This document shows, piece by piece, positions 43 to 53,393 of a stretch of DNA of 64,000 nt (its first letter is position 1; each line of letters opens with the position of its first letter). The translations under genes were made by a program, and so were the position numbers. This DNA comes from Rudanella lutea DSM 19387 (GTDB lineage Bacteria; Bacteroidota; Bacteroidia; Cytophagales; Spirosomataceae): assembly GCF_000383955.1 (NCBI RefSeq), contig NZ_KB913013.1, positions 5,661,694 to 5,725,693 of the forward strand, given 5' to 3'. The notes beneath the pieces were generated by a model, which was not told the DNA's origin, made no database searches, and saw only the letters and a program-made list of their open reading frames with translations.

Positions 43-138
43 GAAATGTATAATGTAGAATGAATAGTGAAAACGATGATGACCAGCGCATTGAGCTTTT
101 TCCATTGTACATTATTTATTGTGCATTAACTTATAATG
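43..138. repeat. AT-rich imperfect intergenic hairpin (AATGTA word family, copy 1)
   Basis: The left part (about 53-70, AATGTAGAATGAATAGTG) pairs imperfectly, roughly 14 of 18 positions, with a segment near 108-126; the arms are built from the words AATGTA, GAATGAAT and their complements. Three similar structures lie near 3390-3484, 51104-51180 and 53256-53357, all between genes. There is no coding potential and no poly-T tail. It sits next to the GAGTGAATG-type hairpin that precedes the hydrolase gene. Confidence 0.5.
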
Positions 139-139
139 G

Positions 140-207
140 AGTGAATGATTGTGTGAAACGCTCTGGCCCTATTCACTCAATCGCTCATTCACTCAATCAC
201 TCAATCA
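140..207. repeat. Quasi-tandem GAGTGAATGATTG / CACTCAATC hairpin
   Basis: GAGTGAATGATTG near 140-152 is answered by repeated ACTCAATC/GCTCATTC words from about 172 to 207, which are its reverse complement with small slips. The result is an imperfect hairpin ending just before the ATG at 215. The right arm is a run of four to five 8-12 base quasi-repeats. A similar half-structure (GAGTGAAAGAGTG ... CATTCGCTCATTTAC) lies at 23006-23046. Role unknown; it may sit in the 5' leader of the hydrolase mRNA. Confidence 0.5.
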
Positions 208-214
208 AAACCGT

Positions 215-946
215 ATGGATCAGAAAAAAACAGTGGTGCTGGTGCATGGGCACGGGGTCGATGCGTCGATCTGGGACTCCTTGTACACCGAACTCGCTCA
301 GGATTATCAGCTGATCAAACCCGATTTCTCAGCCCTTGCCAACCATACTACCATTGAAGCCTATGCTGAATATCTGTACAGCATGCTGCAGGCAGCTCAG
401 GTCGACAAGGCAGTGCTGATAGGGCACTCGATGGGTGGATACATTGCTCTGGCTTTTGCCGAGTATCACCCCGAGCTGGTGAGTGGGCTGGTTTTGTTTC
501 ACTCGACGGTCTTCGCCGACGATGACGAACGGAAAGCGAAACGGCAGGCCGCTATTGAACAAATTCAGCAGCAGGGTAGCCGGGCTTTTGTCGAAGAGAC
601 GGTACCCAAAATGGTGGCATCGTCGCATCGTGAAGCGCTGGGCGAACAGGTTGCCAAGCGTATCGAAATCGGCTCACAGCTGCCTCCTGATGCGCTGGCT
701 GCGGGTGTACGTGCCATTGCCGCCCGACCCGACCGTTCGGCGGTGCTGCAACATGCGTCGTTTCCAATACTCGTGATTGCCGGCAAAGAAGATAACCTCG
801 TTCCGTTTGAGAAAAGCACCCAAATGGCCGATCTGCTCAATGACAAAGGGGCGTTTGTGGGGCTGGACAATGCCGGGCATCTGGGTATGATAGAGCAACC
901 CGAGGAGTCGCTTCGAATTCTGCGCGAATTTCTGGTGCGTGTATAG
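215..946 (+). CDS. Alpha/beta-fold hydrolase
   Basis: A 243-residue cytoplasmic alpha/beta hydrolase. The N-terminal HGHG stretch (residues 11-14) is the oxyanion-hole strand. GHSMGG holds the nucleophile Ser72, an acidic residue follows in the GKEDNLVP segment, and the late DNAGHLGMIEQPEE segment supplies the catalytic His. These make a complete Ser-Asp-His triad, so the protein is probably active, but the substrate cannot be read from sequence; closest in type are small esterases and lactonases. I start it at ATG 215 (MDQKKT...) because the upstream in-frame extension reads through the CACTCAATC repeats and has no family similarity. A hairpin terminator at 985-1012 follows, so it is probably monocistronic and separate from the arginine genes. 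Confidence 0.85.
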   Translation: MDQKKTVVLVHGHGVDASIWDSLYTELAQDYQLIKPDFSALANHTTIEAYAEYLYSMLQAAQVDKAVLIGHSMGGYIALAFAEYHPELVSGLVLFHSTVFADDDERKAKRQAAIEQIQQQGSRAFVEETVPKMVASSHREALGEQVAKRIEIGSQLPPDALAAGVRAIAARPDRSAVLQHASFPILVIAGKEDNLVPFEKSTQMADLLNDKGAFVGLDNAGHLGMIEQPEESLRILREFLVRV

Positions 947-984
947 GGGAAGGGCGGCCGGGCGGCTGGCCTTGTCAAGTTTAC

Positions 985-1020
985 AAAAAGGAGGCCCGAG
1001 TGCTTCCTTTTTGCTTTTTT
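985..1020 (+). terminator. Rho-independent terminator after the hydrolase gene
   Basis: AAAAAGGAGGC (985-995) pairs with GCTTCCTTTTT (1002-1012) with one G-T wobble and a six-base loop, followed by GCTTTTTT. It separates the hydrolase gene from argD. Confidence 0.8.
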
Positions 1021-1119
1021 TAGCCCTTATTCCCCTAAAAATCCGTAATCTTGTTCTTCTTTTTTTGCGAAACATGAAATGTGCGCAGTCGTACTGACGG
1101 CTGACGCCCTCTACTGCCG

Positions 1120-2253
1120 ATGGCTGAGTTATTTAATGTGTACCCGCTGAACGATGTGGAACCCGTTCGGGCGTTGGGCAGCTACCTTTGGGATACCAGG
1201 GGAGATCGTTATCTGGACTTGTACGGTGGCCACGCCGTAATTTCGGTAGGGCACACGCATCCGCGTTATGTACAGGCCCTGACGGAGCAGCTAAACCGAA
1301 TTTCGTTTTACTCGAACTCGGTCAGGATTCCGTTGCAACAGGAGTTGGCCGATAAGTTAGGTGAGATGTCGGAACACCCGGATTATGCCCTGTTTCTATG
1401 CAATTCGGGGGCCGAGGCCAACGAAAATGCCCTCAAACTGGCGTCGTTTCATACCGGCCGCAAAAAAGTGATTGCGTTTAGTAAGGCGTTTCATGGTCGC
1501 ACGGCTGGTGCTGTGGCGGCTACCGACAATAAGGCTATTGTGGCTCCGGTCAATTACAGTGAGCACGTTACCTTTTTGCCGTTCAATGATGCCGAAGCTG
1601 CCCAGCAAGGAATTACCGACGAAGCCTGCGCGGTGATCGTTGAAGGAATTCAGGGAGTAGGGGGCATTCAGGTGGCTTCGGATGCGTTTTTGCAAACTTT
1701 GCGGAAGCGTTGCGACGAAACAGGTGCCGTGCTTATTCTGGACGGTGTGCAGTGTGGCTACGGTCGCTCCGGCAAGTTTTTCTCGCATCAGTTCAGCGGT
1801 ATTCAGGCTGATATTATCTCCATGGCGAAAGGCATGGGCAACGGTTTCCCGATTGGAGGTATTCTTATTTCACCCAAGTTCAAGGCGAGTTACGGCTTGC
1901 TAGGCACCACGTTTGGCGGTAATCACCTGGCCTGCACGGCAGCCATCGCGGTTCTTGACATCATGCGCGACGAAAACCTGATCGACAATGCCACCCGAAT
2001 GGGCGAGTACCTCATGAATGGTATCCGGCAGATTGGCGGCTACAAAGAGTTGCGTGGCCGCGGGCTCATGATCGGAATCGAGTACGATTTTCCGGTGGAG
2101 TCGCTACGGAATACACTGCTGTACGATCACCATATTTTTACGGGGGTAGCAGGCAAAAACACGGTTCGTCTGTTGCCGTCACTGGCCGTTGGACAGGCCG
2201 AAGCCGATCAGTTTCTGGAGGCTCTGAGCGTTTGCCTGGCCGTTCAATCGTAA
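1120..2253 (+). CDS. argD: Acyl-ornithine aminotransferase (ArgD family)
   Basis: A 377-residue class III, fold-type I PLP aminotransferase of arginine synthesis that converts N-acyl-glutamate semialdehyde to N-acyl-ornithine. The NSGAEANENALK segment (residues 95-106) forms the phosphate cup, Asp208 should bind the PLP ring nitrogen, and Lys237 in SMAKGMGNG is the Schiff-base lysine. The usual DEVQ box reads DGVQCGYGRSG, so the Glu is replaced by Gly. Length and order match the family. It is followed by argF' (102 bases later) and argB, so the pathway context is secure. Whether the acyl group is acetyl or succinyl depends on argF' (see the finding there). A near-consensus -7 box TAATCTTG lies at 1046-1053. 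Confidence 0.93.
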   Translation: MAELFNVYPLNDVEPVRALGSYLWDTRGDRYLDLYGGHAVISVGHTHPRYVQALTEQLNRISFYSNSVRIPLQQELADKLGEMSEHPDYALFLCNSGAEANENALKLASFHTGRKKVIAFSKAFHGRTAGAVAATDNKAIVAPVNYSEHVTFLPFNDAEAAQQGITDEACAVIVEGIQGVGGIQVASDAFLQTLRKRCDETGAVLILDGVQCGYGRSGKFFSHQFSGIQADIISMAKGMGNGFPIGGILISPKFKASYGLLGTTFGGNHLACTAAIAVLDIMRDENLIDNATRMGEYLMNGIRQIGGYKELRGRGLMIGIEYDFPVESLRNTLLYDHHIFTGVAGKNTVRLLPSLAVGQAEADQFLEALSVCLAVQS

Positions 2254-2354
2254 CGATATTCCTGACAAAAACACTTTTACCAACACAGGAGAACACGGGC
2301 TACCAATTGAGCTTGTCGTTGACGGGTGTTCGTCTCCTGGGTTTACGATTCATT

Positions 2355-3341
2355 ATGCAGCATTTCATTTCCCCCACCGACGTCACTGATATTCACGCCC
2401 TCGTTAAGCAGGGGCTGTATGTGAAAGCCAATCCGTTTGAAGATGCGCACCTCGGCAAAAACAAAACCATTGGCCTCATCTTCTTCAATTCGAGTCTGCG
2501 TACCCGGCTGAGTACCCAAAAAGCGGCTCAGAATCTGGGTATGAACGTGATGGTTATGAACGTCGGGCAGGATAGCTGGGGGCTTGAAATGGAAGAAATG
2601 ATTGAAGGCCACCCCGTTATCATGAACGGCGACAAAGCCGAACACGTGAAGGAAGCGGCAGCCGTGATTGGGCGCTACTGCGACGTGATCGGAATTCGGG
2701 CCTTTGCCGAGCTGAAAGACCGCGATAAAGACTACCGCGAGCTGGTGATGAGTCAGTTTCGGAAGTATGCAGGTAAACCCATTGTGAACCTCGAGTCGGC
2801 TACCCGGCACCCGCTGCAATCGCTGGCCGACTGTATCACCATTGCCGAGGCAAAAGCGGCCTATGCCATGCCGGCCCGCCCTAAGGTGGTACTGACGTGG
2901 CTCCCGCATTTTAAAGCATTGCCGCAGGCGGTTGCCAATTCATTTTGTGAATGGATGAATCCGCTGGCCAATGCTGGAGAAATTGAGTTTGTTGTGACGC
3001 ACCCCCCCGGATACGAACTGGCCCCCGAGTACCTCGGCAACGCACGCGTTGAGTACGATCAGGAGAAAGCCTTCGAAGGAGCCGATTTTATCTACGGTAA
3101 AAACTGGTCGTCGTACACGCATTACGGACAGGTGCTTACGCAAAACCCGGCCTGGATGGTAACTATGGATAAGATGCAGCTGACCAATAACGGTAAGTTT
3201 ATGCACTGTTTGCCCGTGCGTCGGAACGTGAAAGTGTCCGACGATGTGCTCGACAGCCCGCAGTCGCTGGTGATTGAGCAGGCAGCCAACCGCGAATGGT
3301 CGGCGCAGGCGGTACTGAAAGAAATTCTGCTTACGCTGTAA
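2355..3341 (+). CDS. argF': N-acetyl/N-succinyl-ornithine carbamoyltransferase
   Basis: A 328-residue transcarbamylase of the acyl-ornithine branch: carbamoyl phosphate plus N-acyl-ornithine gives N-acyl-citrulline. The carbamoyl-phosphate loop SSLRTR is at residues 46-51 and the late HCLPVRR box is present. This differs from the STRTR/HCLP pattern of ordinary OTCases and fits the Xanthomonas AOTCase and Bacteroides SOTCase group. In NGDKAEHV, Ala95 appears to align with Xanthomonas Glu92 and B. fragilis Pro90, the residue that sets acetyl versus succinyl preference; Ala points to succinyl. Start: ATG 2355 (MQHFISP) matches family N-termini; the longer reading from 2232 overlaps argD and has no similarity. 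Confidence 0.93.
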   Translation: MQHFISPTDVTDIHALVKQGLYVKANPFEDAHLGKNKTIGLIFFNSSLRTRLSTQKAAQNLGMNVMVMNVGQDSWGLEMEEMIEGHPVIMNGDKAEHVKEAAAVIGRYCDVIGIRAFAELKDRDKDYRELVMSQFRKYAGKPIVNLESATRHPLQSLADCITIAEAKAAYAMPARPKVVLTWLPHFKALPQAVANSFCEWMNPLANAGEIEFVVTHPPGYELAPEYLGNARVEYDQEKAFEGADFIYGKNWSSYTHYGQVLTQNPAWMVTMDKMQLTNNGKFMHCLPVRRNVKVSDDVLDSPQSLVIEQAANREWSAQAVLKEILLTL

Positions 3342-3389
3342 TTCTACGTCCACGCGCTTCGCACAGCCAGGTGTATAGCCGAAATTGAC

Positions 3390-3484
3390 TGTATAATGTA
3401 CAGTGAATAATGTAGAATGAATGGTCTGATAATCAGTAAGGTAAATCTCTGTTCATTATGCATTGTTCCGTATTTATTCACGTA
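3390..3484. repeat. AT-rich imperfect intergenic hairpin (AATGTA family, copy 2)
   Basis: TATAATGTACAGTGAATAATGTAGAATGAATG near 3392-3422 faces TGTTCATTATGCATTG and TTTATTCACGTAT near 3450-3484. Both arms are made of the same AATGTA/GAATAATG words; the best paired block is GTGAATAA with TTATTCAC. It sits between argF' and argB. Just downstream (about 3510-3535) the words AAACCATAAACCC resemble one arm of the hairpin at 24990-25056. Confidence 0.5.
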
Positions 3485-3547
3485 TCTTGCTGTTTTGTAG
3501 GCGTGTATGGCAAACGAAAACCATAAACCCAAAACCTTAACTTCTTC

Positions 3548-4348
3548 ATGAGTACCCAACTGACTATAATCAAGATTGGTGGTAATGTGGTCGACAATCC
3601 GGATGCACTCAAACGGTTTCTGACCGCGTTTGCGGGGCTGCCCGGCGATAAAATCCTGATTCATGGCGGAGGGAAAGTGGCTACCCAGGTGGCCGAGAAA
3701 TTAGGGGTGCAGACAACCATGGTCGATGGACGGCGGATTACCGATCGCCCTATGCTCGACGTGGTGACGATGGTTTATGGTGGCCTCGTAAACAAACAAC
3801 TAGTGGCCCAATTACAGGCACTGGGAGTCAATGCCATTGGGCTTACCGGTGCCGATGCTGGTACGGTACTGGCCCGTAAGCGGCCCGTCAAAGAGATCGA
3901 TTATGGGTTTGTAGGCGATGTGATTGAGGTCGATTCGGGGCAGATTCTGTACTTCCTGAGGCAAGGCCTCACGCCTGTGTACGCACCCCTGACCTACGAT
4001 GAGGCAGGTAACATACTGAATACCAACGCCGACACAATGGCGTCGGCTATTGCCGTTGATATGGCTGGGCGGGCTTCGGTTACGTTAGTGTACTGCTTTG
4101 AAAAGAAAGGCGTACTGGCCAACCCCGACGATGATAATAGCGTTATGGGCAAGCTTACCCCCGACCTGTACGCCGAACACAAGGCGGCTGGCACCATCAA
4201 CAAAGGCATGATTCCGAAGCTCGACAATGCCTTTAATGCGCTCGACAAGGGCGTATCGCGGGTGGTGATTTGCCACGCCGATGAAGTGGCTGCTGCCGTA
4301 ACCGGAGAGGGAGCTGGCACCACCCTGCGTTTGCCAACGCCTGCCTGA
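3548..4348 (+). CDS. argB: N-acyl-L-glutamate kinase (ArgB)
   Basis: A 266-residue amino-acid kinase that phosphorylates N-acetylglutamate, or N-succinylglutamate if the pathway here is succinylated as in Bacteroides. IKIGGNVVD with Lys9 and the Gly pair at 11-12 contacts ATP phosphates, and LIHGGGK at 37-43 forms the second phosphate loop. The ADAGTVLARKR and NTNADTMASAIA segments fit the acyl-glutamate and ATP sites. Length is normal. It follows argF' after a 206-base gap holding an AATGTA-type hairpin, so it may have its own promoter. argC, argG, argH and a deacylase are not in the window. Confidence 0.93.
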   Translation: MSTQLTIIKIGGNVVDNPDALKRFLTAFAGLPGDKILIHGGGKVATQVAEKLGVQTTMVDGRRITDRPMLDVVTMVYGGLVNKQLVAQLQALGVNAIGLTGADAGTVLARKRPVKEIDYGFVGDVIEVDSGQILYFLRQGLTPVYAPLTYDEAGNILNTNADTMASAIAVDMAGRASVTLVYCFEKKGVLANPDDDNSVMGKLTPDLYAEHKAAGTINKGMIPKLDNAFNALDKGVSRVVICHADEVAAAVTGEGAGTTLRLPTPA

Positions 4349-4419
4349 ACTGGTTAACTTTTTGTGTCGATTGGCCGTTTTAGGTGCAGAAACCTTACAT
4401 CTGTTTCTGTTGCTTGCCT

Positions 4420-5265: not shown

Positions 5266-5270
5266 CTCAC

Positions 5271-5316: not shown

Positions 5317-5329
5317 GGAGGGGAGGAGT

Positions 5330-11434: not shown

Positions 11435-11530
11435 TGGGGGGGAGAAAGGAGGAGGGAGGAGGGAGGAGGAATGCCGTACTTGTGTTCCTTCTTTTTTCCT
11501 CCTTCCTCCTTTCCTCCGTTCTCCCTCTTT
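11434..11530. repeat. Purine/pyrimidine mirror-type intergenic hairpin, copy 1
   Basis: GGGGGAGAAAGGAGGAGGGAGGAGGGAGGAGG occupies about 11436-11468 and is answered by TTCCTCCTTCCTCCTTTCCTCCGTTCTCCC to about 11525. One strand is almost pure purine and the other half almost pure pyrimidine, giving a long imperfect stem between convergent genes. Related structures lie at 13722-13781 and 45627-45714. Confidence 0.6.
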
Positions 11531-11532
11531 TT

Positions 11533-13721: not shown

Positions 13722-13781
13722 TGGGAGAAAAGGAGGAAGGAGAAGGGAGGAAAGGTTTGGTTTTCTTCCCTTCTTCGTCAC
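13722..13781. repeat. Purine/pyrimidine hairpin, copy 2
   Basis: GGGAGAAAAGGAGGAAGGAGAAGGGAGGAAAGG (about 13723-13756) faces TTTTCTTCCCTTCTTC (about 13761-13776). The inner stem GAGAAGGGAGGAAA/TTTTCTTCCCTTCTTC has two mismatches. It lies between the end of the MBL-fold gene and the start of pssA, both on the minus strand. Confidence 0.55.
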
Positions 13782-15996: not shown

Positions 15997-16022
15997 AAAC
16001 ACAACGAACAGTGAACAACGAA

Positions 16023-23280: not shown

Positions 23281-24981
23281 ATGCAACATTTCCGTTTCGG
23301 ACGCCTGATTCTGGCGGCTTCCCTATTGTCTATTTGTTTCAATGCTTCTGCGCAAACCCGCAACGCAGCCAAAGAGCAAAAACGTCCCTCGGCCGCTACA
23401 GCCCCCCGAACCCCAAGTTTTCCGGATCGCCCCAAACTGGTAGTTGGTATTGTTGTCGATCAGATGCGCTACGATTACCTCTACCGCTACTACGATAAAT
23501 TCTCAAATGGTGGTTTTCGGCGTATGATGACCGAAGGCTTCAACTGCCGGAATAATCATTACCACTACGCGGCTACGTACACGGGTCCGGGTCACGCGGC
23601 TATTTACACGGGGTCGGCCCCGGCGCTCAACGGCATTGTTGGCAATGAGTTTTACGACCGGAAGCTGGGCCGGATTGCGTATTGCGCCGAAGATACCACT
23701 GTGCAAACGGTAGGGTCTACCAGCCGGGCAGGCCTTATGTCGCCCCGAAATATGCTCTCGACCACCATCGGCGACCAACTCAAACTGGCTACCGACGGGC
23801 GGGCCAAAGTAGTGGGTGTAGCCCTCAAAGATCGGGGGTCTATTTTACCGGCTGGTCATGCTGCCGATGGTGCCTACTGGTTCGATTCAAAAGACGGCAA
23901 CTGGATCACGAGTACATTCTACCGGAAAGACCTGCCAAAGTGGGTACAGGATTTCAACGCCCGGCGCTTGCCCGACGGTTATCTGACCCAGAAGTGGGAG
24001 ACCCTGTTGCCCATTGAACAGTATACCGAAAGTGCTCCCGATGATCAGCCGTATGAGGCTACCTTACCCGGCGAAACCAAAGCCGTGCACCCGCATGAGT
24101 TTGTGACGGTAGCGGGCAACAGCAAGTATGAAATTTTGCGTACCAGCCCCTTTGGCGATGCCCTCACGAAAGAGTTTGCGCTGGCCGCCCTCAAAGGCGA
24201 ACAACTGGGGCAGGACGGCATCACTGATCTGCTGTGCGTGAGTTTCTCATCACCCGACTATATCGGTCACGCCTTTGGTACGCATGCCGTTGAAACGGAA
24301 GATAACTACCTTCGGCTCGACCGGCAATTAGCCGATCTGTTTGCGCAACTGGATGCCACCGTGGGTAAAGGTGCCTGGACTGCATTTTTGTCGGCCGATC
24401 ATGGCGTTGCTGATATTCCGGGTTTTGCCCAGACCTACCGGATTCCGGCTGAGGTGAAAAACGGGGGTGAACTGAACGATGCGGTCAAGAAAGCCCTCGT
24501 CGAAGCGTTTGGCCCCGGCGACTGGACCCTGACGTATTTCAACCAGCAGGTGTATATGAATCATGATCTGCTGGCGCAGAAGAAAATTTCGCTCGATGAC
24601 GCTTATAGTGTGGTGAAGCGGGCGTTGCTGAAGCAGCGTGGCGTAGTCAACGTAGTGAACCTGCACCGGTTGGGCGACGAAGCGCTGCCGGTAAACCTGC
24701 AACCCCTGTTTGAAAACATCGTGTTTCCGAATCGGAGTGGCGATTTTCAGGTCATGTTGCAGGCGGGTTGGTTCGAAGGCCGGAGCCGGGGGACTACCCA
24801 TGGCACCACGTACGCTTATGATACCCATGTGCCGTTTTTGCTGTATGGCTGGGGTGTGAAGCCCGGTCAGACCCTGCGCCGGACGCGTATCGCCGATATT
24901 GCCCCAACCATCTGTGCCTTGTTGGGAATTCTGGAACCGAGTGCATGCGTTGGCGACCCGGTCGAAGAGGTGTTTAAGTAA
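23281..24981 (+). CDS. pafA: PafA-type exported alkaline phosphatase
   Basis: A 566-residue alkaline-phosphatase-superfamily enzyme, exported by a signal peptide ending about ASA-QTR (residue 24). Asp60 (VVDQMRYD) is a metal ligand, Thr101 in TYTGPGHAAIYTGS is the nucleophile, and Asn122 (GNEFYD), Lys183 and Arg185 (LKDRGSILPAGH) match PafA Asn100, Lys162 and Arg164, the monoesterase signature. SADHGVAD and the histidine near TTHG complete the two-zinc site. It should release phosphate from organic monoesters in the periplasm. Near-consensus -7 TACCTTTA lies at 23253-23260. Convergent with cvfB across a hairpin. Confidence 0.88.
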   Translation: MQHFRFGRLILAASLLSICFNASAQTRNAAKEQKRPSAATAPRTPSFPDRPKLVVGIVVDQMRYDYLYRYYDKFSNGGFRRMMTEGFNCRNNHYHYAATYTGPGHAAIYTGSAPALNGIVGNEFYDRKLGRIAYCAEDTTVQTVGSTSRAGLMSPRNMLSTTIGDQLKLATDGRAKVVGVALKDRGSILPAGHAADGAYWFDSKDGNWITSTFYRKDLPKWVQDFNARRLPDGYLTQKWETLLPIEQYTESAPDDQPYEATLPGETKAVHPHEFVTVAGNSKYEILRTSPFGDALTKEFALAALKGEQLGQDGITDLLCVSFSSPDYIGHAFGTHAVETEDNYLRLDRQLADLFAQLDATVGKGAWTAFLSADHGVADIPGFAQTYRIPAEVKNGGELNDAVKKALVEAFGPGDWTLTYFNQQVYMNHDLLAQKKISLDDAYSVVKRALLKQRGVVNVVNLHRLGDEALPVNLQPLFENIVFPNRSGDFQVMLQAGWFEGRSRGTTHGTTYAYDTHVPFLLYGWGVKPGQTLRRTRIADIAPTICALLGILEPSACVGDPVEEVFK

Positions 24982-24989
24982 GGGGGTAT

Positions 24990-25056
24990 GGTTTCGGGTC
25001 TATGGTTTGTTGTGCTGAGTCCACCGTGGCCAACAATAAACCATAGACCCGAAACC
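24990..25056. terminator. Long near-perfect hairpin between convergent genes (GGTTTCGGGTCTATGG family)
   Basis: GGTTTCGGGTCTATGGTTT (24990-25008) recurs as its exact reverse complement at 25038-25056, and flanking bases (GTTG/CAAC) extend the stem to about 23 pairs around a 19-base loop. The arms contain the same GGTTT word several times. No T-tract follows. It probably ends both transcripts. A related half-copy (AAACCATAAACCC) lies near 3515-3530. Confidence 0.65.
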
Positions 25057-25064
25057 ACAAACCA

Positions 25065-25898
25065 TTATAAAAGTCGAATGCCGCCTTCTTCCAGGCTAAT
25101 TTTGCGTTCCCGATACAGCGTACCAATCGCTTTTTTGAAGGTCTTCTTGCTCATTTCCAGCGTCCGGTAAATTACCTGTGGGTCGCTATGGTCGGTGAGC
25201 GGCAAAAAGCCACCCGATTGTTGCAGCTTAGTCAAAATCGCCTGTGCATTGGGTTCAATTCCTTCGAAGCCCGGCTTCTGTAGGGTCAAATCGATGCGGT
25301 AATCGTCCCGAATCCGTTTTACGAAACCTTTCACCTGGTCGCCCGGCCGCAGAGCCCGGAAGGTTTCGCCCGCATAGAGTAACCCCCGGTACCGATTGTC
25401 CACAACGGCATTGTGCCCCAGATCGGTCCGTTCGTAAATGAGCAGGTTTACTTCGTCGCCCTCCTCCAGATCAGGCATCCGTCCTTCTTCGATAAATCGG
25501 TTGATCCGGCTCGATCCGACGAGTCGGTCGGTAGTTTCGTCGTAGTACACAAACACCACGTACGACTGGCCTACCTCCATCGGTTGTGCCTGCTCGCGGT
25601 GGGGAACCAGGAGGTCTTTTTCGAGGCCCCAGTCGAGAAACGCGCCATAGCTCGTCACCGACACGACCCTGAGTACGCCAAACTCGTCGCGCTGAACGGT
25701 AGGGTGTAGGGTGGTGGCCACAATCCGGTCTTCGGAGTCGGTGTACACAAACACATCGATGAACTCATCTTCGCGCAGTGTTTGGGGAACGTATTTATTG
25801 GGTAGCAGTACCTCCTCGCCCGACTCGTGGCCCAGAAACATGCCTACGCTCGTAAGCCGGAGCGCGCGCAACCGGTTGATTCGTCCTAATTCAATCAT
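25065..25898 (-). CDS. cvfB: S1-domain RNA-binding regulator CvfB
   Basis: A 277-residue cytoplasmic protein of the CvfB/YitL family. It contains three S1-like barrels and a C-terminal winged helix: residues about 1-65 (MIELGRINRLRALRLTSVGM, GEEVLLPNKYVP), about 70-135 (VVSVTSYGAFLDWGLEKDLLVPHREQ), about 140-215, then SGGFLPLTDHSDPQVIYRTL...SKKTFKKAIGTLYRERKI. In staphylococci CvfB affects virulence and binds RNA; in Bacteroidota its role is untested. Complete; the ATG is clear. Confidence 0.9.
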   Translation of the reverse strand: MIELGRINRLRALRLTSVGMFLGHESGEEVLLPNKYVPQTLREDEFIDVFVYTDSEDRIVATTLHPTVQRDEFGVLRVVSVTSYGAFLDWGLEKDLLVPHREQAQPMEVGQSYVVFVYYDETTDRLVGSSRINRFIEEGRMPDLEEGDEVNLLIYERTDLGHNAVVDNRYRGLLYAGETFRALRPGDQVKGFVKRIRDDYRIDLTLQKPGFEGIEPNAQAILTKLQQSGGFLPLTDHSDPQVIYRTLEMSKKTFKKAIGTLYRERKISLEEGGIRLL

Positions 25899-32110: not shown

Positions 32111-32494
32111 ATGAAGCACTTTTTCATGACCATGCTGGCGGTAGGGGCAACAAGCTGCCAGTCAGATGAGCTTTCGGCGCTCCGGCTTGTTGATCAGCCG
32201 GGGTTTTTAGAAGTAGCCGTGTGTAGCCGGGGCTGCTACCAGTATTTTTTGAGCGTTTCTCGCCCTAATACGGCCGAACGCTGGTTCCCGGTCAACCTGG
32301 ATAAAGAATTGCAACAGGCCGCGCTGGATTACGCCATTGCGAATCAGGTGACGACGGATAACCGGTTGCCGGTTGTTTTCACCGGTACGTTACTGACCGA
32401 TTCGACCACCATAAAAACAGCCGGGGCCGACGATGTGCCAGTCCCGGCCTTCAAAGCCCGAAATATTGAGTTAACCGGTATTCGGAAGCGTTAA
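32111..32494 (+). CDS. Small putative lipoprotein
   Basis: A 127-residue protein. The N-terminus (MKHFFMTMLAVGATSCQ) ends in Cys16 with a weak lipobox (A-T-S-C), so it is probably acylated and anchored in a membrane. The mature part is polar with CSRGCYQYF (two close cysteines), and TGTLLTDSTTIKTAGADDVPVPAFKARNIEL looks like a small beta domain. Short Bacteroidota proteins of this build are common and unannotated. It ends beside a bidirectional hairpin. Confidence 0.65.
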   Translation: MKHFFMTMLAVGATSCQSDELSALRLVDQPGFLEVAVCSRGCYQYFLSVSRPNTAERWFPVNLDKELQQAALDYAIANQVTTDNRLPVVFTGTLLTDSTTIKTAGADDVPVPAFKARNIELTGIRKR

Positions 32495-32550
32495 AAGCTG
32501 TTTGCGTCAATCACCTTGGCTGCTGCTCAAATCGCTAATGCAAACAGCTT
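32495..32550. terminator. Bidirectional hairpin between convergent genes
   Basis: AAGCTGTTTGCGT (32495-32507) pairs with ATGCAAACAGCTT (32538-32550) through 13 positions including one wobble. It separates the lipoprotein gene from the transglutaminase-like gene, and the flanks contain short A/T runs on both sides. Confidence 0.65.
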
Positions 32551-32551
32551 C

Positions 32552-33589
32552 TTAACCTTTTACCACCGAAAACGACCCGATGGCTTCGTACTGCTGATAC
32601 CGGCCACCCGGTTCGGCTTTCGGTTTAGCAAATACAAACAGGGTAGAGGTGCCCCGCTGGGGTACGCGTACCGTGAGGGTATAGGTGTCGCCGTTACGTT
32701 GTAGGGTAGAGGGCACCGTCTGTACGGAGTTATACCCCGGCCGGGCTAGTGAACAGATAATTTTTACATCTTCCGGATTCCGAAACGTAATGGTAGCTAC
32801 GTCGTTGGTTCGTATAAGCCCGTTTTGTGGAAACCGGCTATCGAATCCCATCCGAAAGTAGGCGTCGTAGAGCTTGGGGAACCGGTCGAAAGCGGCTTTG
32901 CTGACGGGCGGGTTGAGTAGCTGCCAACGCGAGTCGGCAGGCAGGTGCTGAGCGACAAACGCCTGTGGGTCGGTCAGGAAATAGTGATCGTTTGGCCGAC
33001 CGTTTTTGCCGGTTGTAATCGCCCACGTAATATCCACCAGATACCAGTCGCCATCGAGTTTTACGGCATTCCATTCGTGATCTACGGGGCCGGTGGGCTG
33101 ACCGGCCGTACCGTCGTCGGTGCGTGAGTATCCTTTTACATTAGCCACATCGACCCCCGCCCGGTTGAGCAGGTGTTTGTACAACAGCGAAAAGCCCGTA
33201 CAAACCGCCCGGCGCGATTTGAGTACCCGGTTGGCGTACTCAACTTCCGAAAAATACGTGCCGTTACCATACGCATTCATATCGTACCGTACGTGCGATA
33301 AAATCCAGGCGTATATTGATCGGGCTTTGGCCAGATCCGACCGGGCAGGTGCCGTCAGGTGCTTGGCCAGCGTGGTCAGGTCGCGGGATTGGCTTTCGGG
33401 CGTACGACGCGCATAATTGTCGATAGCACTATAATTGGCGTCGGGCGCGTAGGCCAGCAATGGATTGGCGGTGGTTTCCCAGCTTACAAGGTTGGTTGAG
33501 CGGGCTGGGGCAGTGGGGGCGGCAACAAATCCGCTGCCGGTGAGTAGCATTAGGGTGGCCAGCGAAAGGCCTAATGTGTAGTTTCGCAT
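32552..33589 (-). CDS. Exported transglutaminase-like (CYK3-type) protein A
   Basis: A 345-residue protein with an N-terminal signal or anchor (LSLATLMLLTGSGFVAAP). Residues about 90-190 are a transglutaminase-core fold: Cys130 in RRAVCTGFSLLY, His171 in VDHEWNAVKLDG and Asp186 in WYLVDITWA. The C-terminal third is a beta-rich domain. Such extracytoplasmic proteins may be peptidases or cross-linking enzymes. It is a paralogue of the gene at 34134, and the two flank an exported PPC protein. Its ATG lies only 32 bases from that of the PPC gene, so the promoters must overlap coding sequence. Confidence 0.85.
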   Translation of the reverse strand: MRNYTLGLSLATLMLLTGSGFVAAPTAPARSTNLVSWETTANPLLAYAPDANYSAIDNYARRTPESQSRDLTTLAKHLTAPARSDLAKARSIYAWILSHVRYDMNAYGNGTYFSEVEYANRVLKSRRAVCTGFSLLYKHLLNRAGVDVANVKGYSRTDDGTAGQPTGPVDHEWNAVKLDGDWYLVDITWAITTGKNGRPNDHYFLTDPQAFVAQHLPADSRWQLLNPPVSKAAFDRFPKLYDAYFRMGFDSRFPQNGLIRTNDVATITFRNPEDVKIICSLARPGYNSVQTVPSTLQRNGDTYTLTVRVPQRGTSTLFVFAKPKAEPGGRYQQYEAIGSFSVVKG

Positions 33590-45620: not shown

Positions 45621-45626
45621 AAAAAA

Positions 45627-45714
45627 GGAGGAAGGGGGGAAAGGGAGGAAAGGGAGGAAAGGGATTGAGAGTTTACCTCCCTTCGCCTTTACTCCCTTCC
45701 TCCTTTCTCCTTGA
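45627..45714. repeat. Purine/pyrimidine hairpin, copy 3 (with tandem GGGAGGAAA)
   Basis: GGAGGAAGGGGG then GAAAGGGAGGAAAGGGAGGAAAGGGA (about 45627-45663) is a 9-10 base tandem word GGGAGGAAA. After TTGAGAGTTTA the complement CCTCCCTTCGCCTTTACTCCCTTCCTCCTTTCTCC runs to about 45710. It lies between the thiamin kinase start and the end of the guanine deaminase gene. Confidence 0.6.
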
Positions 45715-47685: not shown

Positions 47686-47731
47686 GCTTTCTGTAACCCG
47701 CCGGGCCGCCCGGTTGTTAGGCAAGTGCCCG

Positions 47732-48205: not shown

Positions 48206-48340
48206 GGGGTAAAAGTAGGCAGAAGGGGGCAACCGGGAAAACTCCTAGATAGCCGACCATCCAATTTTCGGGGCGGGCCGGTCGGGATTTGCGTTTTTCC
48301 TCTTTCCTTTGTTTTTGTCTCCAACCAAGAACCAATTCGT

Positions 48341-49540: not shown

Positions 49541-49571
49541 GCTGTTGTAATCCTGTAAACCCGCCGTGTTC

Positions 49572-50126
49572 ATGGCCGACCCACCCAAACGAACCATTCT
49601 TTCGACGGTAAAGCAGTACGGTAACCGGCTGTCGCAGTTTATTCGTGGGCGGGTGCGATCGAGCTATGATGCCGACGATGTGTTGCAGGACGTTTGGTAT
49701 CAGTTGAGTAAGGTAGTCGATCTGGACACCATCGAGAGTATGAGCGGCTGGCTGTATCAGGTGGCGCGCAACCGCATTACCGATCTGTACCGCCGACGGC
49801 CTGAAGAAAGCTTTTCCGATCTGGCTTCGGATGACGAAGAGGGTGGGCTGTTGGGCTTTCGCGAGATTCTGCTGGCCGACCCACAGACGCCCGAAGATGC
49901 GTACTTCAAAGACCTGTTCTGGAATGAACTGATGGCTGCCTTAGACGAACTTCCTGATAATCAACGGACGGTGTTTGTTCAGAACGAGCTGGAAGACCGT
50001 ACTTTACAGGCTATTGCCGATCAGACCGGCGAGAGTCTGAAAACGATCATCTCGCGCAAACGCTATGCCGTGCAGCACCTGCGCAAGCGGCTCCAAAATC
50101 TGTATAACGAACTTGGTTCGCTCTGA
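49572..50126 (+). CDS. ECF-type RNA polymerase sigma factor
   Basis: A 184-residue sigma-70-family factor. Region 2 is DADDVLQDVWYQLSK then SMSGWLYQVARNRITDLYRR; region 4 is ELPDNQRTVFVQNELE then TLQAIADQTGESLKTIISRK. The spacer between regions is short and no anti-sigma is adjacent; instead three tiny membrane proteins follow (50131, 50580, 50906). It lies 31 bases after moeA and may be read partly from that transcript. ATG 49572 is preferred over the in-frame GTG at 49566. Confidence 0.9.
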   Translation: MADPPKRTILSTVKQYGNRLSQFIRGRVRSSYDADDVLQDVWYQLSKVVDLDTIESMSGWLYQVARNRITDLYRRRPEESFSDLASDDEEGGLLGFREILLADPQTPEDAYFKDLFWNELMAALDELPDNQRTVFVQNELEDRTLQAIADQTGESLKTIISRKRYAVQHLRKRLQNLYNELGSL

Positions 50127-50130
50127 CATC

Positions 50131-50442
50131 ATGAAACGCTTTCCCCGACGACGGTTTCTTTTTCCTCTCATGCTCGTGCCGATCCTGCTGGCGGTAACCG
50201 GTCTGGTGTACTGGCTCTGGAATACGGTGCTCGTGGCAGTGGCCCCCCTGCGGCCGGTCACGTATTGGCAGGCCATGGGTCTACTGGTCCTGTCGCGAAT
50301 CCTGTTCGGCGGAATGCGGTTTGGTCGCCCCGGCAACCGGCCGGGGTGGGGTGGGCCACCGTGGCGCGAAAAATGGCGGTCGATGAGCGAGGAAGAACGC
50401 GAAACGTTTAAAGCCGAATGGCGCAAACGTCATCACTCCTGA
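50131..50442 (+). CDS. Small membrane protein of the sigma-factor cassette, 1
   Basis: A 103-residue protein starting 4 bases after the sigma factor. One or two hydrophobic segments (FPLMLVPILLAVTGLVYWLW; MGLLVLSRILFGG) are followed by a Pro/Gly/Arg-rich stretch and the C-terminal PPWREKWRSMSEEERETFKA segment ending in EWRKRHHS. The SM-S-EE-x3-FK motif recurs in the next protein (QMSDEEYNAFK). No known family is recognised. The motif could form an amphipathic helix on the membrane face. Confidence 0.7.
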   Translation: MKRFPRRRFLFPLMLVPILLAVTGLVYWLWNTVLVAVAPLRPVTYWQAMGLLVLSRILFGGMRFGRPGNRPGWGGPPWREKWRSMSEEERETFKAEWRKRHHS

Positions 50443-50579
50443 AGGGCAAAGTCCCGTTGTGCGCCAGTTTGCGCGGTTTTTGCCGTTTTTGAAAAAAAAG
50501 TCTCAAACCGGTAAAGTATTTTCCCGGTGAGTCCGTCATCCTCTTCAGAACGTTTGTAAATCCGCGTTCTGACAAGACG

Positions 50580-50894
50580 ATGAACCTAATTTTGAAATCC
50601 ATTTTGGCCGGTCTGCTTTTGGGCGCGGCTTTGTTTATGCTGCCGTTCTTTTTGTTGCGGCTGGCTATTTTCTTTCTGCTGATGGGCGCCTTTTTTCGGC
50701 TGGTGCGTGGCCCGCGCCGAGGGCCCTGGGCGTTTGGTAAATCCGGTCGAGGGTTCGGGCAACGGGGTTTCGCCTTTGCCGACCGCATTCGGCAGATGAG
50801 CGACGAAGAATATAATGCGTTCAAACAACAACGCTGCGGGCATTGGGGGCGTCAGGCTCCGTACACCCAATCAGCCGAAACCACCAACCTCTAA
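50580..50894 (+). CDS. Small membrane protein of the sigma-factor cassette, 2
   Basis: A 104-residue protein. Two hydrophobic segments (LKSILAGLLLGAALFMLPFF and LLRLAIFFLLMGAFF) precede an Arg/Gly/Phe-rich part and the motif RQMSDEEYNAFKQQRCGHWG. This contains the MS[ED]EE...FK word shared with the protein at 50131 and the C-x-HWG word shared with the protein at 50906. A perfect 8-bp hairpin TCAGAACG/CGTTCTGA (50545-50572) lies 8 bases before its ATG. No known family. Confidence 0.7.
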   Translation: MNLILKSILAGLLLGAALFMLPFFLLRLAIFFLLMGAFFRLVRGPRRGPWAFGKSGRGFGQRGFAFADRIRQMSDEEYNAFKQQRCGHWGRQAPYTQSAETTNL

Positions 50895-50905
50895 TCTCGA
50901 TCGCC

Positions 50906-51079
50906 ATGCAACGCCGTATCAATCCAATCGTTGTTTTTCTGACGGCTGCCCTCACGCTGGGTAGTTTGCTTGCTCTGGTGGGACATAACCATCTCGACGG
51001 TCGAGGCCACTGGAGCTTCGGGTCGGGGGCCGAGTGCCGCCATTGGGGGCAAGCCCCGGACGCTCAACCGAAGCCTTAA
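50906..51079 (+). CDS. Small membrane protein of the sigma-factor cassette, 3
   Basis: A 57-residue protein with one hydrophobic helix (NPIVVFLTAALTLGSLLALVG) and a short tail, GHNHLDGRGHWSFGSGAE then CRHWGQAPDAQPKP. The tail repeats the HW word (GRGHW and CRHWG) and shares C-x-HWG-x-AP with the protein just upstream. His and Cys content hints at metal binding. Start ATG 50906, 11 bases after the previous gene. Confidence 0.62.
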   Translation: MQRRINPIVVFLTAALTLGSLLALVGHNHLDGRGHWSFGSGAECRHWGQAPDAQPKP

Positions 51080-51103
51080 AAGCTGGTTAAGCGGGCATAA
51101 GTG

Positions 51104-51180
51104 AATGAACAATGTAAAATGCATAATTGAATTACCTACTCACAACCAGTCGTTTAATTGTACATTTTACGTTGTTCATT
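51104..51180. repeat. AT-rich near-perfect intergenic hairpin (AATGTA family, copy 3)
   Basis: AATGAACAATGTAAAATGCA (from 51104) pairs through about 22 of 26 positions with the complement of 51155-51180 (TAATTGTACATTTTACGTTG then TTCATT). The loop is about 25 bases. It sits after the sigma-factor cassette and before the AraC terminator. It is the best-paired member of its family in the window. Confidence 0.62.
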
Positions 51181-51233
51181 ATACATTTAATTCAGTCTGA
51201 GTACTTAGTTTCGGGCTAATCGCCTGATTAAAC

Positions 51234-51270
51234 GAAAGCCGACAGCTCCGCAATGGGGTTGTCGGCTTTC
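51234..51270. terminator. Hairpin terminator between the sigma cassette and the AraC gene
   Basis: GAAAGCCGACA (51234-51244) pairs perfectly with TGTCGGCTTTC (51260-51270) around a 15-base loop. It lies between two convergent transcripts and probably ends both. Confidence 0.78.
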
Positions 51271-51316
51271 TGTATTACAGGGCATTGAGTTGGCAGAAGC
51301 GGGGTTGTATCGGTCG

Positions 51317-52189
51317 TTACAAGGCCCGGTAGGTACGCACGTAGGTTGAGGGTGTTTTGCCCGTCACTTCTTTAAACTGTCGGTTGAAGTTAGAAAGTGT
51401 TCGGTAACCGCTTTCGTAACTGATTTGGGTTACGCTCATTGAGCCGTCCATCAGCAGCTTACAGGCATGGCCTACCCGTACCTCGGCCACAAAATTGGAA
51501 AACGTTTTGTTGGCCCGGATTTTAAAATACCGGCAAAAAGCAGAGGGGGTCATACCCGCCAGATCGGCAACGGTGTCGAGGCAAATATGGTCGTGGAAAT
51601 GGCTCATTACATAGTCGTGTACCACCTGAATGCGGTCGGTTTCGGAGGGTTTTACGGTGTTGGTGTACCCCAGGCTGGTAATAAACTGGTAGTCCGACGT
51701 CCGCGAGAGCTCGTGGAGCAGGTTCAGCAAAGCCAACACCCGCTCGAAACCCGGTTCGGTTTGTTGCACCCGGCGAAGCAGCTCAATGGCGCGGTCGCGG
51801 GTGGGCGAAAGCCACTCCAGCCCCCGGCGGGCGTTTTCGAGCAGTTGCCGAAGTAATCCCATTTCGCGCTGGGCGAAGAAGGTATCACCCAGAAAATTTT
51901 CGGTGAAATACACTACAATGCCGTGCGTCTGGAGGCCACTGTCGCGCTCAAAATAGGGTTTATCGCTGCGCCACAGGTGAGGTAGGTTGGGACCAAGCAT
52001 GACGAAGTCGCCCTCGGCAAAAGGCCGGATTGAGTCGCCGATAAATCGGGTGCCCGTGCCCTTTTCGACCAGAAAGAGCTGATAATGCGGATGAAAGTGC
52101 CAGTTAGGGTCGAAGTGTGGTTCGGTGAGCTCGTGAACCGCAAACGATTCGGCGACCGGCTCAAGGTCTTTGCGGAGGGCTTGTTTCAT
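51317..52189 (-). CDS. AraC-family transcriptional regulator
   Basis: A 290-residue regulator. The N-terminal cupin sensor is visible at residues about 20-100 (FDPNWHFHPHYQLFLVEKGTGTRFIGD; DFVMLGPNLPHLWRSD), and the C-terminal double helix-turn-helix at about 190-290 (LADLAGMTPSAFCRYFK; VTQISYESGYRTLSNFNRQFKEV). This is the two-helix layout of sugar-responsive AraC proteins. It is divergent from the sugar epimerase gene, 137 bases apart, so it is likely its local regulator. The shared region has a -7 box TAGATTTG (52297-52304) for the epimerase gene. Confidence 0.88.
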   Translation of the reverse strand: MKQALRKDLEPVAESFAVHELTEPHFDPNWHFHPHYQLFLVEKGTGTRFIGDSIRPFAEGDFVMLGPNLPHLWRSDKPYFERDSGLQTHGIVVYFTENFLGDTFFAQREMGLLRQLLENARRGLEWLSPTRDRAIELLRRVQQTEPGFERVLALLNLLHELSRTSDYQFITSLGYTNTVKPSETDRIQVVHDYVMSHFHDHICLDTVADLAGMTPSAFCRYFKIRANKTFSNFVAEVRVGHACKLLMDGSMSVTQISYESGYRTLSNFNRQFKEVTGKTPSTYVRTYRAL

Positions 52190-52296
52190 AACGACTTCCA
52201 GATTTTAGGCTTAAATTTTAGTCTATTGAGTAAAGTGAAGGTAAAATACAGTCGGTATTGGGTAATAAAAGCAGGGCAACCCGCCGATTTACTATG

Positions 52297-52304
52297 TAGA
52301 TTTG
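52297..52304 (+). promoter_or_regulatory. -7 box of the epimerase gene
   Basis: TAGATTTG matches TAnnTTTG exactly, 23 bases before ATG 52327. No TTTG lies at -33, which suits an activator-dependent promoter under the AraC protein. Confidence 0.42.
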
Positions 52305-52326
52305 TGGTAATTTAGAAAGGTACTCT

Positions 52327-53232
52327 ATGAATAAATTGGGGATGAACCTCTTCGTCTGGACCATGTCGATGGACGAAGATATGGCGGAAACGCTCCGGTA
52401 TCTGAAAGAAACCGGCTTTGAGTTTGTCGAAATGCCCGTGGGCGGTACCGATGACCGGGCGGCAGACCTGGCCAAGTGGACACAGCTGGGTCAGCAGGCC
52501 GCTGCTCTCGGACTGGATGTTCAGACGTGTTCGTTGCTGCCACCCGAACTGACGCTCCTCAGCCCCGACGAGACGGTGCGGCAGGCTGGTGTTGAGTACC
52601 TGAAACACGTGGTTGATTGTTCGGCAGCAGCTGGTTCCACTATTCTGATGGGGCCGCTTTTTGCGGGCTTCAAAACGTTTGCCGGTCGGCCTGCCACCGC
52701 CGATGAGTGGCAGTGGTCAGTAGAAAGTATGCGGCAGGTTGCCGATTATGCCCAAACGAAAGGGGTGGTACTGGCCATCGAATCGCTCAACCGGTTCGAG
52801 ACGTACCTGCTCACCTGCGCCGATGATGTGGTGCGCTATGTCAAGGCCGTTGACCATCCGTACTGCCGGGCTGCGTTTGATACGTTTCATGCCAACATTG
52901 AGGAGAAAAACGTGGCCGATGCCATCCGAACACTGGCCCCGTACCTTGTGCACGTACAAATCTCTGAAAATGACCGGTCGACGCCGGGGCAGGGCCAAAT
53001 CCGGTTCGAGCAGGTGTTTAACACTCTCGCCGAAGTAGGGTACTCAGGCCCCATCGCCATTGAAGCCTTTGGGCCTAATCCGCCCGAACTGGCTGCCGCT
53101 ACGCACATATTCCGCCCGATGTTTGCCTCAGCAGAGCAACTGGCAGCCGAGGGGTTTGTGTACCTCCGGCAAATGCTCGAAGAGGCTCAGCCAATTACCG
53201 AAATTCCCGATAGTCAGGTTATAGAAGCGTAG
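52327..53232 (+). CDS. Sugar phosphate isomerase/epimerase-like TIM barrel
   Basis: A 301-residue xylose-isomerase-like TIM barrel. FGF-like entry MNKLGMNLFVWT, then YLKETGFEFVEMPVG, then AIESLNRFETYLL with a metal-ligand Glu, AFDTFHANIEE with Asp and His, and VQISENDRSTPGQGQI and IAIEAFGP with a final Glu. It resembles D-tagatose 3-epimerase and IolE/IolI groups. It starts an apparent operon with the oxidoreductase and ThuA genes. Exact sugar unknown; a 3-keto-sugar role is plausible. Confidence 0.83.
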   Translation: MNKLGMNLFVWTMSMDEDMAETLRYLKETGFEFVEMPVGGTDDRAADLAKWTQLGQQAAALGLDVQTCSLLPPELTLLSPDETVRQAGVEYLKHVVDCSAAAGSTILMGPLFAGFKTFAGRPATADEWQWSVESMRQVADYAQTKGVVLAIESLNRFETYLLTCADDVVRYVKAVDHPYCRAAFDTFHANIEEKNVADAIRTLAPYLVHVQISENDRSTPGQGQIRFEQVFNTLAEVGYSGPIAIEAFGPNPPELAAATHIFRPMFASAEQLAAEGFVYLRQMLEEAQPITEIPDSQVIEA

Positions 53233-53255
53233 TGTACGTATTGAGTCAGAATTTA

Positions 53256-53393
53256 ATGGACAATGTACAGTGTAGGATGAATAATGAACTCAAGCTGGTA
53301 TCAGTAGAGCCAATCATTATACATTATTCATTACGGTTCATTATACATTATTCATTCATGTATAAGTAATTGAGCGTATTGGGCTCAATTACT
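53256..53393. repeat. AATGTA-type repeat (copy 4) followed by a perfect 11-bp hairpin
   Basis: ATGGACAATGTACAGTGTAGGATGAATAATGAAC (53257-53290) faces CATTATACATTATTCATTACGGTTCATTATACATTATTCATTCATG to 53360, giving alternating pairing blocks such as ATGAATAATG. Directly after, AGTAATTGAGC (53365-53375) pairs perfectly with GCTCAATTACT (53383-53393) around GTATTGG, followed by a T-rich stretch. The last hairpin may end part of the epimerase transcript before the oxidoreductase ATG at 53428. Confidence 0.6.

Follow-up and report, generated by a model that had tools for sequence, protein, structure and literature searches.

The genome of Rudanella lutea DSM 19387 (6.55 Mb) carries two classes of intergenic hairpin, seen in a 64 000-nt stretch (G000:C1:5661694-5725693; hereafter the window) and in samples of the rest of the genome. 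Class A consists of dispersed, copied hairpins with shared loops, some of them found in one species only. Class B consists of hairpins that are pinned to stop codons and fill their intergenic gaps, with arms made of 7- or 8-nt words or of purines. We tentatively favour a mutational origin for class B, by slippage and fold-back copying, with some of its members serving as transcript ends. An earlier reading of the window, made from the sequence alone, had reported at least nine intergenic inverted repeats with word-built arms in at least four families. The hairpin class is real and wider than these nine sites.

Gene borders were taken from a purpose-written codon-score open reading frame caller rather than curated annotation, so gene starts are approximate. 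Inverted repeats with word-built arms were found at all nine reported sites (Table 1). The best stem at each site was compared with those of 200 dinucleotide shuffles of the same stretch: no shuffle reached the observed stem at 3390, 11434, 13722, 24990, 45627 or 51104, one did at 140 and at 53256, and six equalled it at 43, the weakest of the nine. The stem at 13722–13781 is modest, with a score of 24 (26 with flanks). The region 53256–53393, reported as one site, holds two unrelated hairpins, one built of AATG words and a separate short one. Judged by eye, only two of the nine sites (11434 and 45627) have a T run after the stem, in agreement with the statement that most lack a U-tract.

A first scan for hairpins scoring at least 30 covered the window and 40 evenly spaced 20-kb stretches (864 kb) and gave 142 intergenic against 5 genic hairpins; three shuffles of every gap yielded none, and shuffled genes yielded 2. 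The enlarged own-genome sample (1.343 Mb in 38 blocks) held 204 strong hairpins. Arm periodicity was scored by sliding each arm along itself by 4–18 nt and comparing its best self-match with 100 shuffles (at least 18 pairs, p ≤ 0.02). By this test the arms of 66 hairpins were periodic beyond chance (∼4 expected) and 138 were not counted as periodic; a repeat run gave 68 of 203. The periods were 14 nt (34 hairpins), 7 nt (14), 16 nt (7), 8 nt (5) and others (6), so that 48 of the 66 had a period of 7 or 14 and 12 more a period of 8 or 16. At 80 loci of relatives, 36 of 157 hairpins were periodic (∼5 expected at the cut-off), with other words and periods of 14 (12), 7 (8), 16 (5) and 8 nt (4). 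Many further copies thus occur genome-wide, contrary to the scarcity that the sequence-only reading had named as grounds for its refutation.

Several vocabularies are present, as had been claimed, but their number is higher than four: the own-genome sample contains at least nine, AATGNNN, AACARYG, GGAGTGA, GAGYGAAW (8 nt), GTTTWCR, GGCAGTN, GATGAGY, purine words and GTTTATGG. Only 2 of 10 purine arms pass the periodicity test, as is expected of a two-letter sequence. GGG, as needed for quadruplex-type G-tracts, is by eye missing from most words and occurs in some purine, GGCAGT and GTTTATGG words. The GATGACATCT palindromes (family F11) and CGCGGAT repeats (F13) are further dispersed hairpin families that are not built from 7-nt words.

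In every non-palindromic family the 5′ arm carries the same strand of the word, in 95 of 95 hairpins, a count made without the 7 self-complementary GATGACATCT-family and 102 unclassified hairpins. The word patterns were written after examples had been seen, but were applied in both directions. Counted by clusters, the polarity was 70:0 in the own sample, 33:0 in G001, a second Rudanella genome used as the close relative for species comparison, and 10:0 at 69 loci of relatives, alongside 111 (loose patterns), 46 and 108 unpaired arrays, respectively; the loose AATG pattern probably picked up many of the 108 by chance. Across 6 genera, 18 genomes selected for having AATG words gave 1483 overlapping AATG-first matches and 31 CATT-first, with 28 and 37 matches for the backward-pattern controls; 20 of the 31 fell in one genome and, as listed, in other words such as GGTCATT. 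The 5′ arm of periodic hairpins also tends to be richer in G than in C (51 vs 15 with less G, of 68, in the own genome; 28 vs 3 of 33 in relatives); for the non-periodic hairpins of relatives the figures were 77 vs 59 of 148. Unpaired arrays in tandem gaps that lie nearer the next start were antisense in 22 cases and sense in 1. The two arrays of a pair are in convergent orientation, as in the inverted heptamer pairs of Rehm et al. (2015; PMC4692102).

The two classes were separated by rules that we set ourselves from family names and F1 loop motifs. Class A (n = 36) comprised families F9, F10, F11 and F13 and the AATG hairpins with a CTGATAATCAG-type loop, and class B (n = 66) the remaining word and purine hairpins; ACAGGATT (F10), GCGGAT (F13) and GATGACATCT (F11) were placed in class A despite unshared loops, and F3 was kept in class B although half its loops are shared. 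Loops were shared between copies in the GGACATTAG family (F9, 4 of 7), the AATG family (F1, 7 of 15) and the GGAGTGA family (F3, 4 of 8). They matched no better than shuffled loops in the AACARYG, GAGYGAA, GATGAGY and purine families and in 8 of 10 GTTTWCR hairpins, the exceptions being the other two GTTTWCR loops and one weaker AACARYG match; F6 and F12 had too few loops to compare. Thus, copies alignable through the loop, as expected of a miniature inverted-repeat transposable element (MITE), were not found in class B, F3 and the two GTTTWCR hairpins excepted. In the window, the hairpins at 3390–3484 and 51104–51180 belong to class A, as probably does 53256–53355; those at 11435, 13722, 24973 and 45624 belong to class B, and 43–207 was placed in neither. 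A GC-rich loop core of the GCTGACGC type was considered as a general feature and rejected: it occurred in 10 of 74 hairpins (1.4 expected from shuffles), but 5 of these were in F3 and 3 in F5.

The classes differ in position. Class B hairpins lie a median of −1 nt from the nearest stop codon and within 15 nt of it in 53 of 60 cases, class A hairpins a median of 25 nt away and within 15 nt in 10 of 31 (p 8 × 10−8 for the difference); 46 of 92 other hairpins lie within 15 nt. The median fraction of the gap filled was 84% for class B (at least 70% in 42 of 64) and 40% for class A (at least 70% in 2 of 36). The constant intergenic position claimed for the sites therefore holds for the stop-pinned class and not for the copied one. 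Class B hairpins were found in 26 ++, 21 −−, 13 +− and 4 −+ gaps, with 1 at a block end and 1 inside a called gene; the ratio of 13 convergent to 4 divergent compares with 106 to 141 gaps (p 0.010). T runs (at least 6 T of 8 at the stem end, in the gene sense) followed 6 of 50 class B word hairpins, 5 of 10 purine hairpins, 4 of 31 class A hairpins and 35 of 92 other hairpins; a shorter scored interval with a slightly different word set gave 9 of 65 for word, 3 of 10 for purine and 17 of 92 for other hairpins. The purine group thus looks more terminator-like, and many of the other hairpins look like plain terminators. Word hairpins are longer than terminator-like ones (median span 93.5 vs 50 nt). 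At one locus (L043, 13137-13292), two near-identical terminator-like hairpins (AAAGCGAGTC...GACTCGCTTTTTTT) flank, by eye, a tRNA-like sequence.

For comparison between species, a counterpart in G001 was available for 188 of 205 gaps; negative coordinates denote positions upstream of the window start. Word hairpins mostly occupy the same gap in both species and draw on the same vocabulary, apart from gains and losses of words. At 53256 and −189008 the orthologs differ, by eye, in a single word, and at −12571 a 7-nt word has been lost in both arms. At −169436, purine words in one species stand opposite AATG words in the other. The relative keeps the loop of the 11435 hairpin with rewritten arms, and has in the 13722 gap a purine stretch of other wording (stem score <26) and in the 15997 gap 78 nt of purine-rich sequence. 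The arms of the 24973 hairpin have changed partly in step in the relative. In a third genome, G002, compared at this gap only because it offers one collinear gene pair, a different 58-nt hairpin fills a 58-nt gap (24982). In three hairpins (−161818, −130391 and −167130) the loops appear by eye to be inverted between orthologs, as if the segment had flipped; an automatic test for this was noisy, flagging 6 of 34 loops, mostly with weak scores and including only one of these three hairpins.

Copied hairpins were present in one species only at 51104, −49336, −18365 and −153661. Together with the shared loops of F9, F1 and F3, these cases suit the idea that all of the hairpins are non-autonomous mobile copies, moved by a transposase, with loops that have decayed beyond recognition. 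So does the 61-bp hairpin inserted at 32495, the only place where a target-site duplication (TAA) is possible. This idea describes class A well. It accounts poorly for class B, where loops match at the shuffle level outside F3 and the two GTTTWCR hairpins, arms are reshuffled words rather than alignable copies and no clean target-site duplication was seen; moreover, the Y1 transposase genes of this genome adjoin other palindromes. The suggestion that the sites are mobile repeats is thus retained for the subset with shared loops, some present in only one of two Rudanella species, and not extended to the rest; mobility as the origin of all of them is distinctly unlikely. No BLAST match to plasmids was obtained for one AACARYG and one AATG hairpin.

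More distant relatives were compared at the gap beside the OTC-fold gene. Of 24 species, 9 have a hairpin there that scores at least 26; seven of these hairpins are at least 55 nt long and, by eye, mostly of different wording (purine words in Spirosoma validum, GTTT in Fibrivirga and S. oryzae, CGCAAAG in Fibrisoma). The other 15, including the window's own species (25.5), had none, so that the prospect of unrelated, unstructured sequence in the same gaps of relatives was borne out in part. In 59 orthologous tandem gaps (673 cases; 60 permutations matched for gap length), dissimilar hairpins shared a gap across species in 377 pairs, against 194 ± 20 expected, and dissimilar long hairpins in 79 against 46 ± 8. 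Part of this excess will be due to ordinary terminators at true transcript ends.

Selection on pairing was assessed from compensatory changes in one species pair, using 20 word or purine pairs; only hairpins with an alignable ortholog were included, and base pairs touching gaps were set aside (98 in other, 91 in heptamer and 47 in purine and GTTTATGG stems). The other, mostly terminator-like, stems had 16 compensatory changes (0.5 expected), 10 one-sided breaks, 2 G-U changes and 1 double break in 360 pairs. They act as a positive control, in which the method detects selection where it is expected. Purine and GTTTATGG stems had 3 compensatory changes, 7 breaks, 5 G-U changes and 1 double break in 124 pairs. 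Heptamer stems had no compensatory changes, 14 breaks and 10 G-U changes in 354 pairs. With 24 one-sided changes and none compensated, pairing in the heptamer stems is not visibly selected and is not maintained pair by pair. In word hairpins (n = 19) the two arms were less alike (identity 0.83) than the same arm in the two species (0.89), although 7 of the 19 went the opposite way; in other hairpins the order was reversed (0.93 and 0.89). Concerted evolution of the arms was rejected as a general rule on these values; 11435 and 24973 look partly symmetric in their arm changes.

These results bear on whether the hairpins are two-way intrinsic terminators, in which the sequence is free and selection acts on the fold and on a purine-5′/pyrimidine-3′ polarity. 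Such terminators would be expected at 3′ ends and with the polarity observed, and would explain why dissimilar hairpins reuse the same tandem gaps and why none of the 13 convergent gaps with a class B hairpin has another U-tract terminator. The T runs of the purine group and the 3 compensatory changes in purine and GTTTATGG stems are also consistent with them. Word hairpins conform poorly: T runs are rare, compensatory changes are lacking in the heptamer stems, and the order of arm-arm and between-species identity is the reverse of that in other hairpins. As a general account this is unlikely. The proposal that the sites are alternative transcription ends keeps its support from position and from the purine and GTTTATGG stems, and is weakened for the heptamer stems.

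Differences per aligned site between the two species were 0.085 in word hairpins (78% aligned), 0.155 in purine hairpins, 0.152 in other hairpins, 0.11–0.23 in other intergenic DNA and 0.285 at fourfold sites, figures in which re-registering of repeats may hide changes. Word hairpins might instead be a neutral by-product, simple-sequence palindromes arising everywhere and surviving only where harmless, that is outside genes and promoters, with no function. The uncompensated heptamer stems alongside 16 compensatory changes in other hairpins, the many unpaired arrays, the depletion in divergent gaps and the 15 species without a hairpin in the OTC gap are all as this would predict. It leaves unexplained that class B is pinned to stop codons far more tightly than the copied hairpins, that the polarity is the same in gaps between convergent genes, with no start codon to be protected, and that the words differ three times less than fourfold sites. 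We regard a purely neutral origin as somewhat unlikely.

The reading that we favour for class B combines mutation with occasional use. Slippage by 7 or 8 nt immediately downstream of a stop codon, where the sequence is untranslated, would produce an array of words on the sense strand, and fold-back (strand-switch) copying would then produce the second arm. This would fix the polarity, with the word strand as the 5′ arm. The products would be kept where harmless, and some, above all the purine ones, may serve as transcript ends. What was observed is the anatomy of the hairpins, their periods, polarity and position, some length changes by whole words and their replacement between species; slippage, fold-back, a link to transcription and any termination function are inferred from it. 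Of the explanations first offered, generation of hairpins by one process from local word copies fits class B best, because of the shared vocabulary, the mostly unrelated loops, the periods of 7/14 and 8/16 nt and some whole-word length changes; 'local' is insufficient, since many loci use the same vocabulary in one polarity.

Several observations weigh against this reading. Local slippage does not predict that a vocabulary is shared by numerous loci whose loops are unrelated. Of 11 internal arm indels of at least 4 nt, only 4 have a word length (7, 8, 14, 16 or 21 nt). Unpaired arrays outnumber pairs in the own sample (111 vs 70, with loose patterns), and those in tandem gaps that lie nearer the stop are sense in 16 cases and antisense in 14. 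The G excess on the 5′ arm is also found in non-periodic hairpins of the own genome (80 vs 45 of 135). The low divergence of word hairpins relative to fourfold sites could reflect constraint on the words themselves. As to transcript ends, the scarcity of T runs in class B word hairpins relative to other hairpins and the uncompensated heptamer stems have been noted, and no slot effect was seen in convergent gaps (82 dissimilar pairs vs 92 expected; 33 vs 42 for long hairpins). In favour of the reading, with class B hairpins masked, another U-tract terminator was present in none of 57 tandem or convergent gaps holding one, against 101 of 515 without; the little space left beside the hairpin makes this test partly mechanical.

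The words themselves are patchily distributed. AACARYG arrays were found in 12 of 296 genomes of the phylum, the own genome included (59+61 matches; all such counts overlap), and the backward control matched in 6 of 296, with up to 27+16, so that scattered matches outside the genus mean little. Within the family, AACARYG was found in 12 of 121 genomes (20+20 in G001, 8+9 in G002), AATGNNN in 57 of 121 (own 95+96 vs control 5+3; controls are high in a few genomes, e.g. G326, G346 and G369) and GTTTWCR in 28 of 121, with control matches in one genome. Species of one genus differ in their words, for example AATGGTA/AATGGTG or AATGTAG/AATGAAG. Such words are common in still other phyla. One sequence titled Flavobacterium sp. 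SUN052 (NZ_JAPQNS010000009.1, L057) has an OTC 88% identical to that of Rudanella and similar word hairpins; its label may be wrong.

Candidate makers were sought among known enzymes. Four Y1 transposase matches were found in the genome, which, with hairpins that are palindromic, intergenic and polar, would suit a system of repetitive extragenic palindromes (REPs) and REP-associated tyrosine transposases (RAYTs). Three of the four loci are flanked by palindromes of other kinds (TTTACCCCGTAGGGG and others) and the fourth by none, a purine hairpin lying one gene further on. Of the genomes picked because they lack three of the words, 9 of 10 also have Y1 matches, hardly less often than the word-rich genomes, of which 12 of 12 do. 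Y1 transposases were rejected as makers on these grounds, and a REP/RAYT origin is largely refuted and scarcely credible. Copies of TTTACCCCGTAGGGGTT, spaced at ∼55 nt, surround a Y1 gene at L217 (G000:C1:4131100-4134500) and seem to be that gene's own array of REPs. An RVT_1 reverse transcriptase was found in 4 of 12 genomes searched, the word-rich G413 among them, and in none of G000, G001, G002, G304 and G363, all of which carry such words; it was therefore rejected as a writer. The words are not, in general, all-frame stop signals either, as GTTTWCR and purine words lack sense-strand stops (by eye).

A more speculative scheme, which we consider very improbable, is that word hairpins are written rather than copied: a dedicated process would add 7- or 8-nt words from a template held elsewhere to the sense strand on the 3′ side of gene ends, and fold-back would make the second arm. 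A template held elsewhere would give one vocabulary at many loci, unrelated loops and a fixed polarity with G > C on the extended strand. If so, the process would resemble telomere-like repeat addition, in a bacterial version that acts at gene ends with species-specific words.

Table 1. Hairpins and related arrays in the window (positions from its first nucleotide)
Position	Strand	Feature	Context
43–138 (best stem 51–128)		AATGNNN-word hairpin	309-nt tandem gap, not pinned to a stop; near-identical in Rudanella paleaurantiibacter
140–207		GAGTGAAT-word hairpin	7 nt between its end and the following called start codon (215)
3390–3484		AATGNNN hairpin, copied class, shared loop CTGATAATCAG	Between OTC-fold gene and amino-acid-kinase gene
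3517–3536	−	Lone unpaired array of GTTTATGG-type words (half site)	By eye
11435–11532		Purine/pyrimidine word hairpin	Fills convergent gap between two stop codons; T run after stem, + strand
13722–13781		Purine/pyrimidine word hairpin	Tandem (−−) gap; reaches stop codon of upstream gene
15997–16022		Unpaired AACARYG words	26-nt gap
24973–25072		GTTT(C/T)GGGT(C/T)TATGG hairpin	Fills convergent gap
32486–32559		AAGCTGTTTG...CAAACAGCTT hairpin, ∼61 bp; another family, not word-built	Inserted exactly at TAA stop between convergent genes; absent from relative, whose called genes overlap here
45624–45706		Purine/pyrimidine word hairpin	Fills tandem (−−) gap; T run after stem, − strand (sense of its upstream gene)
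51104–51180		AATGAACAATGTAAAATG... hairpin, copied class, loop CTCACAACCAG	209 and 136 nt from flanking stops; absent from relative's gap
53256–53355		AATGNNN hairpin	Loop like copied class by eye; relative has one more 7-nt word in 5′ arm
53365–53393		Short hairpin AGTAATTGAGC..GCTCAATTACT	Separate from word hairpin

Ten flanking proteins that were scanned belong to ordinary enzyme or domain families, and searches of the window gave no Rfam family match at the gathering score and no tRNA. The OTC-fold protein is 99% identical to its counterpart in R. paleaurantiibacter, and the matching 20-kb locus of that species is ∼90% identical in DNA. In the relative (L055 10988-11308), an extra TTTGTCATCCCGACGAAGGAGGGATCT hairpin lies beside the AATG hairpin in the gap corresponding to window 3342–3547, and its counterpart of the gap at window 20781 holds a longer hairpin related to that at 32486–32559.

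In a limited, mainly non-subscription literature search of titles and abstract openings, no description of word-built hairpins in Spirosoma, Rudanella or their family was found. Rho-independent terminators are likewise stem-loops after stop codons, and the purine group shares their T runs; the word hairpins are longer, with fewer T runs and no compensatory changes. REPs have fixed polarity and, like the present hairpins, are intergenic palindromes. They are described as 20–40 bp long with a GTAG or CGTC tag (PMC3733652), and the Y1 genes here carry other palindromes. A minisatellite inside a MITE of Porphyromonas gingivalis (PMC4596501) is described as combining tandem and inverted repeats in a Bacteroidota genome; set beside its description, class B hairpins show no copied boundaries. 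TAACTGA direct repeats, reported from Beggiatoaceae, Cyanobacteria and five Bacteroidetes (MacGregor 2015; PMC4679880), are also heptamers, intergenic, dispersed and patchily distributed, with indels between two related strains that are mostly 7-nt steps. According to the same source they are direct repeats of one word, in its main genome mostly just upstream of starts, whereas ours are inverted, at stops and of many words.

More generally, architecture proves separable from sequence, and whether such elements are by-products, transcript ends or written becomes testable in ordinary soil bacteria; in such genomes, shape alone is insufficient to annotate gene-end hairpins as terminators or mobile repeats. 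Among known systems, the word hairpins are closest to the inverted GGGAATC heptamers of Xanthomonas, among the GGGAATC/GGGGA(C/T)T repeats described from Xanthomonas and Nostoc (Rehm et al. 2015; PMC4692102). In that study, 70 and 75 convergent array pairs form inverted repeats in two xanthomonads. The heptamers lie on average 28 nt from the 5′ gene and 160 nt from the next, are rare between divergent genes, are sense near stops and antisense near starts, and vary in length between species; their role was left open, with polymerase slippage cited as an idea. Variable 7-nt units in intergenic inverted pairs of the same polarity and position were therefore already in print. That account describes one quadruplex-forming word type per genome, and the Rudanella hairpins go beyond it in their 14-nt alternation, gap filling and vocabulary that changes between species. 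What is new here is that many vocabularies coexist in one genome under one architecture, polarity and position, and that relatives fill the same gap with other words.

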